Virus record (IMG/VR): IMGVR_UViG_3300013133_000026
Location: 1 to 34,438 of that record
DNA from: a virus
Length of the DNA: 34,438 nt
Strand: one strand, 5' to 3'
The notes below the pieces were generated by a model. It ran no database searches. It was not told the origin of the DNA and saw only the letters and a program-made list of their open reading frames with translations. Each line of letters starts with the position of its first letter. Positions within the stretch are counted from its first letter, which is position 1. Made by a program: the position numbers and the translations under genes. Shown here piece after piece: positions 9,651 to 12,922 of this stretch.

Positions 9651-10135
9651 ACATTGATTAGAGATTTTTCCTGTTCCATTATGGAAATTTTGTCCTTCAA
9701 TACTGATTCATTGACCACATTCCAAAGACCTGGATGCATGGGTCGGGGCCAATGTCCCGAAGAAACCCATGCCCAACCAATGTGTTCGTGATTGAGTCGA
9801 GGACAAAATTCATTAGACACACTGGCCCAAAAAGTATAATATTCAAATTTTTTATCTATACTGGTAAATTTTTCCAAAGGTAATAGTTCAATATATTCGG
9901 GTACCATGCCTAGTTCTTCTAGACATTCTCTAGAGATAGTGTCCAATAGACTCTCTTGATGTTCTTGTTTACCACCAGGCAATCCCCAATGTCCGGGATT
10001 TTTGATGTCATTGCGTAATAGATACAAATATCTATTAGTGGCTATGGAATAAAACCAAACACCGACTGCGGAACATGACGATATCATATATAAAGATTGG
10101 TGTAAATTAACCGATGTTAGAGCACTAAATTCCAT
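9647..10135 (-). CDS. Nudix hydrolase
   Basis: A complete Nudix box, G-x5-E-x7-R-E-x2-E-E-L-G-M, follows LPG: GKQEHQE … RECLEELGM. This is the Mg-binding pyrophosphatase signature for nucleoside diphosphate derivatives. FYSIATNRYLYLLRN is the first strand of the fold. I favour ATG 10135, which has ggtgg upstream and overlaps the gp15 stop by 19 bases. ATG 10087 (about 146 residues) is an alternative that fits the domain edge better but lacks a ribosome site. T4 has a Nudix enzyme, NudE; orthology is not shown. It lies downstream of gp15 and gp14 on the same strand. Confidence 0.88.
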   Translation of the reverse strand: MEFSALTSVNLHQSLYMISSCSAVGVWFYSIATNRYLYLLRNDIKNPGHWGLPGGKQEHQESLLDTISRECLEELGMVPEYIELLPLEKFTSIDKKFEYYTFWASVSNEFCPRLNHEHIGWAWVSSGHWPRPMHPGLWNVVNESVLKDKISIMEQEKSLINV

Positions 10136-11523
10136 GAACCACCAGAATATAAACCGTCGATGCTTTTGGTCCAAGCAGTTTCTGACCATCTATATTGTAG
10201 ACCAGTCATGATATTTGTGACATATTGAATATCTTGTTGTCGATAAACACTGTCAAAAACCACACGCCATTTGATCCCATCAAATTCAATGATGTCATTG
10301 GCCTCTGCGTATAGAGGTTGATTATTAATACCTCGCCAGGCCAATGGATTACTGGTGTTGCTTCTATTGCCAGTGGATTCAGTCAACAGATATCTTTGTC
10401 CTATGATACTGGAATCAAGACCATCACCGGGTGCACTCAACAATGGATTTATAACAGCATCTACTGGTGCCAATGTATTGGCTGGTGCAGTGTCAGGATC
10501 AATATTGTAAATCAACAATCGATCGTCGGCAGGATTTACGCTGATAGTTCCTACGATTTCAGTGTCAGGTTCCCAGGGATTACTCAATGTGATATAACTG
10601 ATCCCGGGTCTAAGAACTCCATATGCTGCAATTGCAGCAGGCCAAACAATTTGTGGATCTTCGATGACAGGAAAATTAAACGGGGCAAGACTTTGAACTG
10701 AGTTAGAAATCACTGCATTGTTATTGAGAATTTGTAGTTGACCGTCCAACAACAATACTTGATAATTGTAGGGTGTTATTTTGACTCGTGTGCCCAGTAA
10801 CAAGTCATTGTTGGTAATGGCATTAAGTGGATCGCCTTGACTGTCATAGATAGATGCCACAATTCGTTCGACGACACCCAATTTTCTGACTTTGACTGGA
10901 CTGCTGATCCAAATTGGAATTCCAAATGTCATGGTCATGATATCAATGGGATTTTCTGTGCCCATTGGAATAGATCTACTAGACCATTGCACTCTGTCGA
11001 GATCTACCACACTGAGACTAGTCCAATCAATGTAGTTGTCGGTGCTTTGTATTTCCAAACTGGGATTAAACAATACAGCCAGTTGTTCAAACAATTGCAT
11101 TTTCTGATTGGTATTTGAAGTCCATATATCTAAATTGATAGTCATTTTATATGGAACAGGCATCATTCTTTCTATGGTAAAGGCGTTGCCTTGTGTGGTT
11201 TCGTAGCTGTCGGTATTTGAATCATATGTGCGTTGACGAACTTGCATTTTATTAATGTAGTAGGGTTCTTGAATTCTTCCGCGGTCATAGTCCATGCCTG
11301 TGATATAAAAACTCATCATGGGTGTTGATGGGAGACTATTAGCACTGTTGTTTTGAAGAATTGTTTGAGCTTGTCTACTGGCATCGCCGTAACGAATTGG
11401 CACACGTATGAGATCTTTGTTGCCCTCGGGATCTCTACCATATTCCACTTGAAAATTACTCAGCATCCTGGTAAATTGCAGTAGATATCTGCGTATCTGT
11501 TCATCGTAAAAATAACTTTGAAT
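10117..11523 (-). CDS. 15: Tail terminator / sheath stabiliser gp15, apparent ATT start
   Basis: The product caps the tail tube and sheath and joins tail to neck. The body reads IRVPIRYGDASRQAQTIL, then SFYITGMDYDRGR and VPYKMTINLDIWT, a pattern of T4-like gp15. The first ATG (11466) lacks a ribosome site and would omit an in-frame S-Y-F-Y-D-E-Q-I-R-R-Y-L-L-Q-F segment that matches the family N-terminus (T4 gp15 begins M-F-G-Y-F-Y and then F-R-R-Y). That segment starts at ATT 11523, seven bases after a perfect AAGGAG (11536-11531). No ATG, GTG or TTG is available there. The length would be 468 residues, longer than T4's 272. It follows gp14 by 21 bases. Confidence 0.82.
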   Translation of the reverse strand: MQSYFYDEQIRRYLLQFTRMLSNFQVEYGRDPEGNKDLIRVPIRYGDASRQAQTILQNNSANSLPSTPMMSFYITGMDYDRGRIQEPYYINKMQVRQRTYDSNTDSYETTQGNAFTIERMMPVPYKMTINLDIWTSNTNQKMQLFEQLAVLFNPSLEIQSTDNYIDWTSLSVVDLDRVQWSSRSIPMGTENPIDIMTMTFGIPIWISSPVKVRKLGVVERIVASIYDSQGDPLNAITNNDLLLGTRVKITPYNYQVLLLDGQLQILNNNAVISNSVQSLAPFNFPVIEDPQIVWPAAIAAYGVLRPGISYITLSNPWEPDTEIVGTISVNPADDRLLIYNIDPDTAPANTLAPVDAVINPLLSAPGDGLDSSIIGQRYLLTESTGNRSNTSNPLAWRGINNQPLYAEANDIIEFDGIKWRVVFDSVYRQQDIQYVTNIMTGLQYRWSETAWTKSIDGLYSGGSWNLVL

Positions 11524-11544
11524 TTTAAGTCTCCTTAAAACTTA

Positions 11545-12909
11545 TTAACTTGAAGGTTGACCCGGTTGTGTGCCTGGGTAGGGATTCGCAGTTTTATTCC
11601 CGCCTTGATTGCCATTGTCGGCCAGTGGTTTCAGTGCCTCACTGAGACTTTGTCTACTGGGTATATTTCCTTGATCATTAGTGGGAATAGTATATGAGTT
11701 ATTTACAAAACTACTACGTTGGGTGGAATTATTTGTGCCAGGGGTCAGTTGAGTTCTTACCTTGTCCTCGATTTTAATCCATCGATTTCCGTTATATCTA
11801 AACAGTCTATTGGGAAAGTAATCCAACCTCAAACAATAGTCACCGGGCACTGGGTTTATGGGAAATTGTAGTCCTGCTGTGACAGGTAATCCATTAGGAG
11901 CAATACCATCACCCGTCAAGTATCCAGCAGTATATCCATCTGTTCGTGGGGTGTCTTCGAGATTTACCACAGTGCGACTGGCATCACTCAAAGTATAATC
12001 GGCAGTATAGGTATCCGGGTCACCCAAACTACCGTCGAGATTTGTGGGCAGAATCCAAAATTTCACAGTGTCATAGCCGCTCAAAGGAACTTCGGCTTCG
12101 GCTTGAAGAATAATAGCATCATTGATTTCTAAATCACGATTTCTGGTGCTGATTTCGTCGGCTATGCTGTCTGGTGTAGTCGATTGCCAATATTGAGTAT
12201 CAGTGATATCTATGCCTGGTGGAACAGGTTTAACAGCGATATAATATTGGTCTCCAGAATTCACAATGCTGCCAGTGGGATAAAAATTACCATTGTCCCA
12301 AATTTGTTCAGGCATAAATGGTTTGTCTAGAATATCATTGTATTCTTGCGCATTAACCAGTGGTGTGGCTTTGACACGCCACAAGTGTGGTAGCCATGTT
12401 TGACTAAAACCTTCACTGGCATAAGCCGCATCTTGTATGACATAATATTTAGGAACTGCTCGAGGTATAGTGCTGTCTAGTGGATAATAATCTTTGAGAT
12501 TAGGAACTTCGATGACATCTCCACTCATGAGTTTTCTGCCAATGAGATCGATCATGTTATTGAAATGAAAAGTAATAAACAATGTATCGTTGTTTAAAAA
12601 CAAACCAAATTGTGTGAGATCAAAATCTATATCTTGAGTATTATAAACACCTCTGATGATATAGACATCTGCATCATATGCACGATCTCGATTTTCCAAC
12701 AATAACAAATCTTCAATAAACAAAGGATTGCTTTCGCTGTATTTGGGCAAAGTGGCATCATTGCTGCCCTCTTCTCCAGCAACTTTGGGTCCTAGATACT
12801 TGTGAACAAATATGTCCAAGCCGCCCACTGTATACATTTCTTTGATAGTTCTATCCAGAAATTGATAGTCAGAGGTTCTATTTGGCCTATATAAACTGAG
12901 TCTTGGCAT
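11545..12909 (-). CDS. 14: Neck protein gp14
   Basis: The 454-residue protein matches T4-like gp14, which with gp13 forms the neck closing the filled head and receiving the tail. Visible family features are FLDRTIKEMYTVGGLDIFVHKYLGP near the N-terminus, DLLLLENRDRAYDADVYIIRG, and FGLFLNNDTLFITFH followed by SGDVIEVPNLKDYYPLD. It is longer than T4 gp14 (256 residues), with a C-terminal extension rich in Asn, Ser and Pro (about residues 395-454). It begins just downstream of a CATAAATA box on the minus strand. It and gp15 are inverted relative to gp13. Confidence 0.78.
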   Translation of the reverse strand: MPRLSLYRPNRTSDYQFLDRTIKEMYTVGGLDIFVHKYLGPKVAGEEGSNDATLPKYSESNPLFIEDLLLLENRDRAYDADVYIIRGVYNTQDIDFDLTQFGLFLNNDTLFITFHFNNMIDLIGRKLMSGDVIEVPNLKDYYPLDSTIPRAVPKYYVIQDAAYASEGFSQTWLPHLWRVKATPLVNAQEYNDILDKPFMPEQIWDNGNFYPTGSIVNSGDQYYIAVKPVPPGIDITDTQYWQSTTPDSIADEISTRNRDLEINDAIILQAEAEVPLSGYDTVKFWILPTNLDGSLGDPDTYTADYTLSDASRTVVNLEDTPRTDGYTAGYLTGDGIAPNGLPVTAGLQFPINPVPGDYCLRLDYFPNRLFRYNGNRWIKIEDKVRTQLTPGTNNSTQRSSFVNNSYTIPTNDQGNIPSRQSLSEALKPLADNGNQGGNKTANPYPGTQPGQPSS

Positions 12910-12914
12910 AAATT

Positions 12915-12922
12915 TATTTATG
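12915..12922 (-). promoter_or_regulatory. Near-consensus late promoter box (CATAAATA) before gp14
   Basis: Read on the minus strand the box is CATAAATA, 7 of 8 to the T4 late element. It ends 6 bases before the gp14 ATG, so transcription from it would start at or inside the start codon. Either gp14 is nearly leaderless or this match is coincidental. Confidence 0.25.

Follow-up and report, generated by a model that had tools for sequence, protein, structure and literature searches.

A handful of genes are known to use natural AUU initiation codons, which are usually read as fixed regulatory devices. AUU initiates the bacterial genes infC and pcnB, and an internal start of T4 gene 26 is of the same kind. 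The gp15-like tail gene reported here resembles these three in having an AUU initiation codon behind a Shine-Dalgarno sequence (SD), and distinguishes itself from them in that its AUU is polymorphic, swaps with AUG among close relatives and is linked to a mobile cassette. A strong and extended SD also accompanies the non-canonical AUU start of cvfC1 in Staphylococcus aureus, where, unlike in gp15, the AUU is conserved by descent in the staphylococci and no mobile element is involved (PMC13009471). AUU and AUA starts with extended SDs were found to give about 10% of the output of AUG in that species (PMC13009471).

The cassette itself has relatives of another kind among the homing endonuclease genes (HEGs). 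Free-standing HEGs of T4 are found at the boundaries between genes, with a few instances of split genes (PMC2988022). With the T4 Seg endonucleases the gp15 cassette shares the GIY-YIG domain, the lack of an intron, the position at a gene boundary, a late promoter (reported for SegB) and the expected co-conversion of flanks (PMC2988022), but it differs from them in breaking a coding sequence after codon 6 and in supplying a full replacement 5′ end. Aeh1 mobE in nrdA and T4 mobA in gene 60 likewise reside inside a coding sequence, and these split the protein in two (PMC2988022), whereas the downstream copy of gp15 is rebuilt to full length. Closest in architecture are the mobile ORFs of fungal mitochondria (atp6, atp9, cox2 and nad3), which also carry a recoded replacement gene end and leave the old copy as a relic (PMC3630166). 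The fungal elements replace the C-terminal end of mitochondrial genes, while the gp15 cassette replaces the N-terminal end of a phage gene and brings a new ribosome-binding site and an AUU. A literature search of incomplete coverage found no earlier report of a phage N-terminal cassette with a new SD and AUU.

The start site of the gp15-like gene

The window is the whole stretch of DNA that was analysed, 34,438 nt of the IMG/VR virus record IMGVR_UViG_3300013133_000026. The features of its gp14/gp15 junction are as follows.

10117..11523, minus strand: gene for a gp15-like tail sheath stabilizer/terminator, of 468 codons counted from the ATT, with PF16724 and PHROG matches
11506..11520, minus strand: codons 2-6 of the gp15-like gene (CAA AGT TAT TTT TAC), the stretch replaced by GIY-YIG cassettes in relatives
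11521..11523, minus strand: very probable gp15-like start codon, AUU (ATT), where the conserved N-terminus has residue 1
11524..11544, minus strand: spacer of 21 nt from the gp14-like stop to the ATT, proposed remnant of the end of a homing-endonuclease cassette
11531..11536, minus strand: SD AAGGAG, 7 nt ahead of the ATT
11545..12909, minus strand: gp14-like virion gene with ATG start (phrog_11591), upstream of the gp15-like gene
12915..12922, minus strand: late promoter element of T4 type, CATAAATA, whose first base is at -13 relative to the gp14-like ATG; a leaderless mRNA is predicted

The minus-strand context ...TTCAAGTTAATAAGTTTTAAGGAGACTTAAAATTCAAAGTTATTTTTACGATGAACAG... holds AAGGAG at 11536-11531 and ATT at 11523-11521, and re-reading of the sequence bears out the seven bases that the original prediction had placed between them; its coordinates for the ATT, the SD and the first ATG were all right. 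The gp15-like frame is open back to the TAA at 11544-11542 (GTT TTA AGG AGA CTT AAA ATT) and, as had been claimed, harbours no ATG, GTG or TTG between that stop and the ATT. Its first canonical start is ATG 11466, which lies 19 codons past the ATT and indeed has no SD. Read from the ATT, the protein acquires an N-terminal extension, IQSYFYDEQIRRYLLQFTR. These 19 in-frame codons had been proposed to match the N-terminus of the gp15 family, and this holds in the Pfam comparison, where T4-gp15_tss (PF16724) aligns to residues 4-231 of the window protein from profile position 1 (E 1.5e-27). Two PHROG tail families were also matched (phrog_11196, 3.9e-86; phrog_227, 1.1e-24). Residue 3 of T4 gp15 (PDB 4huh/3j2m) was aligned to residue 3 of the window protein, although with a weak E-value of 0.0018, and the ATT thus occupies the place of Met1 in T4. 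A hairpin, GUUUUAAG-GAGA-CUUAAAAU, could form over part of the SD and the AUU (window 11520-11541, minus strand), with an energy that was not exceptional relative to shuffled sequences. No tRNA gene was found in the window.

Relatives were collected by a protein search, which gave 80, and by two DNA-pattern scans of IMG/VR, which gave more. Removal of identical gp15 5′ ends left 184 distinct alleles, near relatives still being included among the distinct ones. Their starts were ATG in 136, ATT in 40, GTG in 5 and TTG in 2, with none recognizable in 1, and neither ATA, ATC nor CTG occurred at the gp15 start site in any of the 184. Since the pattern used in one of the scans demanded ATT, the unbiased rate is taken from the scan that was blind to the start codon, where 6 of 110 had ATT (ATG 99, GTG 3, TTG 2). 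All AUU-bearing relatives are uncultured metagenomic contigs, with no isolate found among them. There were no relatives among the GTDB genome collection and therefore no host link. Among named phages, Atu_ph07 and PA5oct were inspected; they show 33-35% identity and have an ATG start, as does L001, a close relative and sister of the window with the same codons 2-6.

The original prediction had left room for one misread base, ATG to ATT, by sequencing or assembly error. The two codons are one G-to-T change apart and the close relative L001 does start with ATG, but the gp15 start is ATT in 54 IMG/VR contigs that come from numerous separate metagenomes, the ATT alleles have an SD that ATG alleles mostly lack, and ATT is found at the gp14-like gene as well. 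Since numerous independent metagenomes have this codon and it is scattered over the gp15 tree, a misread base is rejected and is given next to no probability. Translation might also begin at the internal ATG 11466 or elsewhere, leaving the upstream codons untranslated. That ATG is in frame, yet it has no SD, the N-terminus is homologous to T4 gp15 from residue 3, and the next canonical start after the ATT is as far as 63 codons on in L005 and 40 in L075. Moreover, codons 2-19 of the ATT alleles have a pN/pS of 0.10 compared to 0.27-0.29 in the rest of the gene, which indicates strong purifying selection, as expected of translated sequence, and we regard an internal start as highly unlikely. 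The AUU is very probably the true start of the gp15-like gene; the proposed initiation at ATT 11523 is borne out by the conserved N-terminus together with ATT in 40 distinct relatives.

AUU as a general start codon was considered and rejected for G001, G003 and the window. The codon is gene-specific: across the window, the 349-kb G001 and 140 kb of G003, gp15 alone has a credible SD-ATT start. G007 combines an ATG start at gp15 with an SD-ATT at its gp14-like gene.

Start codons and SD strength in two neighbouring genes

The ATT codon of gp15 was never found apart from a strong SD. All 40 ATT alleles had an aSD duplex energy of -6.2 kcal/mol or stronger, and the medians were -7.1 kcal/mol for ATT and -2.9 kcal/mol for ATG alleles (p 7e-20). 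Most ATG alleles have no SD and have their start between -1 and +5 nt relative to the gp14 stop, which is by its layout the usual arrangement for translational coupling; a strong SD was found in a few of them (6/128). Among independent phylogenetic pairs differing in ATT, the SD differed in the same direction in 19-20 of 21 and in the opposite direction in 0 (p about 4e-6).

The gp14-like gene was represented by 164 distinct alleles, starting with ATG (147), ATT (12) or GTG (5). An SD was present in 12/12 of the ATT alleles, 5/5 of the GTG alleles and 14/145 of the ATG alleles with readable upstream sequence. The SD of the ATT alleles was GGAG (L007 3104, L032, L044, L046, L072, L073, L112, L183, L198, L199, L255 and L268). 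A T4-like late promoter preceded the gp14-like ATG in 139 of 145 alleles, most often 11-15 nt away, and by the T4 rule such spacing would put the transcript start at the AUG, making the mRNA leaderless. In the ATT alleles the late promoter, where found, was located further upstream than in the ATG alleles. HEGs were absent from the gp14-like ATT alleles, and SD-AUU can thus arise without a HEG.

The late-promoter motif NTAAATA had two preferred distances from ATG, about -12 to -16 and about -24 to -38, the nearer class being mostly without SD at gp14 and predicted to yield leaderless mRNA. This spacing was seen at window 12909-12922 (minus strand), in L285-L317 and in the gp14-like genes of relatives, and these phages may have many leaderless late genes.

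With AUG occurring where the SD is absent and AUU or GUG where the SD is strong, compensation is the most economical interpretation. AUU behind a strong SD would give approximately the same modest initiation as an SD-less AUG coupled from gp14, and at gp14 the SD-AUU would match the output of an AUG reached by leaderless initiation. The alternative offered in the original prediction, a late gene translationally damped by its AUU, is compatible with these observations but incomplete, since AUU always has a strong SD and AUG mostly none; AUU probably keeps output in range and does not simply lower it. While the correlation is well supported, the mechanism by which a strong SD would compensate for AUU as a weak start can be called likely.

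The distribution of ATT on the gp15 tree, a quick tree from which the first 25 residues were left out, required at least 25 changes between ATT and other starts for 31 ATT tips. Shuffled tip labels gave 21-31 changes with a mean of 28.7. AUU at gp15 is accordingly not conserved by descent, its scatter being close to that of random labels, and nearly identical gp15 bodies have different starts, as in L099 (ATT) and L205 (ATG) or L059 (ATT) and L035 (ATG). Relative to their nearest canonical relatives, ATT alleles had an identity of 0.775 over codons 2-6 and 0.860 over the codons that follow (given both as 7-12 and as 7-30), compared to 0.840 and 0.873 in control pairs. The divergence of codons 2-6 fits a short 5′-end exchange, either by homing co-conversion or by ordinary recombination. 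Across the alleles compared, the SD-AUU 5′ end shows itself to be a recurrent allele that swaps with an SD-less AUG beside the gp14 stop.

This scatter bears on the possibility that the AUU is an IF3-responsive regulatory start of the infC or pcnB type, with HEG cassettes as incidental passengers of a hot spot. Consistent with such a role, it is AUU specifically that occurs, never AUA or AUC, the gp14-like AUU alleles have no HEG, and output from AUU and AUA with extended SDs is as low in S. aureus as cited above (PMC13009471). The near-random distribution on the tree, however, is not that of a start conserved by descent, and in five alleles described below the AUU was brought in by the cassette and the resident start, now broken, is ATG. 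A search of 12 large contigs from relatives (88-353 kb) turned up no IF3 gene. We consider an IF3-responsive start with incidental cassettes to be rather doubtful.

GIY-YIG cassettes at the gp14/gp15 junction

In L026, L030, L062 and others, gp14 and gp15 are separated by an ORF of about 155-188 codons that encodes a GIY-YIG domain (PF01541, E 1.5e-8 in L030 and 4.7e-9 in L026). Such cassettes do not figure in the original prediction. A search with the HEG protein led to 37 loci, and all informative ones were at this junction. The insertion point is between codons 6 and 7 of the old gp15. Upstream of the cassette the old gene reads ATG-CAR-CAR-TTY-TTY-TAY and is broken after codon 6, where a few codons of the cassette lead into a stop, and a late-promoter-like CATAAATA is found between this broken start and the start of the HEG. 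The 3′ end of the cassette consists of an SD, a new start, recoded codons 2-6 and an in-frame fusion to codon 7. Broken resident and recoded replacement ends therefore flank the HEG in these relatives, as they do in the fungal mobile ORFs.

In 30 distinct HEG alleles the broken start codon and the codons following it were kept in 16, as ATG in 15 and as ATT in 1, and partially in about 8. Of the new starts, 11 (about 40%) are ATT and about 16 are ATG or GTG. Five distinct alleles (L062, L100, L109, L268 and L277) have a broken resident ATG and a new ATT, so in these it was the cassette that introduced the AUU. In L273-L275 the HEG is preceded by a broken gp15 start that is itself ATT, meaning that an allele already carrying AUU was invaded. 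Judged from the two gene ends that flank the endonuclease, delivery of SD-AUU by the cassette is demonstrated in the HEG-bearing alleles.

The same architecture might be produced by a HEG residing in a self-splicing intron, in which case splicing would join the old ATG to codon 7 and the ATT would never serve as a start. The broken start and codon 7 would in fact join in frame at the HEG-bearing loci. The part of the insert not coding for the HEG is only about 20-60 nt, however, no Rfam intron match was found in eight relatives or in the window region, and the window and most ATT alleles are without any insert, which leaves the intron only a very slight chance. The cassettes are free-standing HEGs, having the GIY-YIG catalytic domain and no self-splicing intron around it.

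Selection for immunity is another candidate explanation of the AUU, with ATG as part of the endonuclease target and the ATT allele remaining uncut. A filled allele must resist its own enzyme, and the cassette does recode the first six codons. Other cassettes nevertheless have ATG or GTG starts, and the HEG of L273-L275 was inserted into an allele already ATT; immunity as the cause of the AUU appears improbable.

HEG presence was also tried as the sole predictor of ATT and was rejected as such, the association in independent pairs not being significant (median p 0.125), and the claim was for this reason widened to the SD-AUU module. On these comparisons the HEG is one demonstrated route to the SD-AUU end and not the only possible one.

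Some loci have less regular starts. In L058 4169 gp15 follows a GIY-YIG ORF without a recognizable start (TGA ACT AAA TCG CAA), and a nearby ATG is out of frame, which may reflect an indel, an error or another start mode. The gp15 ATG of L055 1272 is one base out of frame before a T run, as a result of sequencing error or slippage. In L283, a 231-kb contig, there is no ATG, GTG, TTG or ATT near the gp15 start just past a short GIY-YIG fragment, and the nearest candidate is an ATC without SD. The junction can also contain other genes: L011, L012, L013, L015, L019 and L080 have a heme oxygenase gene there (PF01126, E 3.8e-17 in L011) as well as a second ORF of about 226 codons, possibly cyanophage bilin genes.

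Endonuclease loss and the 5′ end in the window

Alleles without a HEG can retain the end that a cassette supplied. L095, which has ATT and no HEG, corresponds to L118 after excision of the HEG between CCA microhomologies. In L056 about 80 nt of the HEG end survive together with the old ATGCAACAATTC; a few tens of nt of the HEG appear to survive in L106, and 11-21 nt survive in others. Loss of the endonuclease, as read from such remnants, leaves the AUU behind. Over positions -14..+18 the HEG-less ATT alleles had a median identity to cassette ends of 78% and the ATG alleles 59%, while their gene bodies were equally distant from the cassette alleles (65% and 63%, respectively).

The window has no HEG and is among the best HEG-less ATT matches to cassette ends. 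Its positions -14..+18 are identical to the HEG-borne end of L026 at 30 of 32 (94%), compared to 61% for the gene bodies. This match is suggestive of a cassette origin, but it is not proof, because function constrains the SD and the start, and codons 2-6 are the same in the ATG sister L001. Delivery of the window's SD-AUU by a cassette seems moderately probable. HEG homing with co-conversion of the flanks would carry the SD-AUU end into gp15, and the HEG would later be lost by deletion, leaving that end behind. Homing, co-conversion and HEG deletion would then be the main route of the SD-AUU end into gp15, that of the window included.

Taken jointly, an AUU start, its pairing with a compensating SD, the swapping of 5′ ends and delivery by a HEG cassette followed by HEG loss form an explanation in which we have good confidence. 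Evenly balanced, in our judgement, is the more specific proposal that the HEG spreads the SD, the AUU and the recoded codons into an essential tail gene and that, once the HEG is lost, the AUU persists because the SD-AUU matches the output of the displaced SD-less AUG.

If true, gp15 has start codons that are mobile alleles, and two neighbouring virion genes trade the strength of the start codon against that of the SD. A selfish endonuclease can, by bringing a new start, land in a coding sequence without harm. Gene callers limited to ATG, GTG and TTG would miss the first 13 to 63 residues of such proteins in the alleles examined. The 40 distinct natural AUU alleles, standing beside AUG, GUG and UUG alleles of the same gene, constitute a ready-made series for the trade-off between SD and start codon and for the role of IF3.
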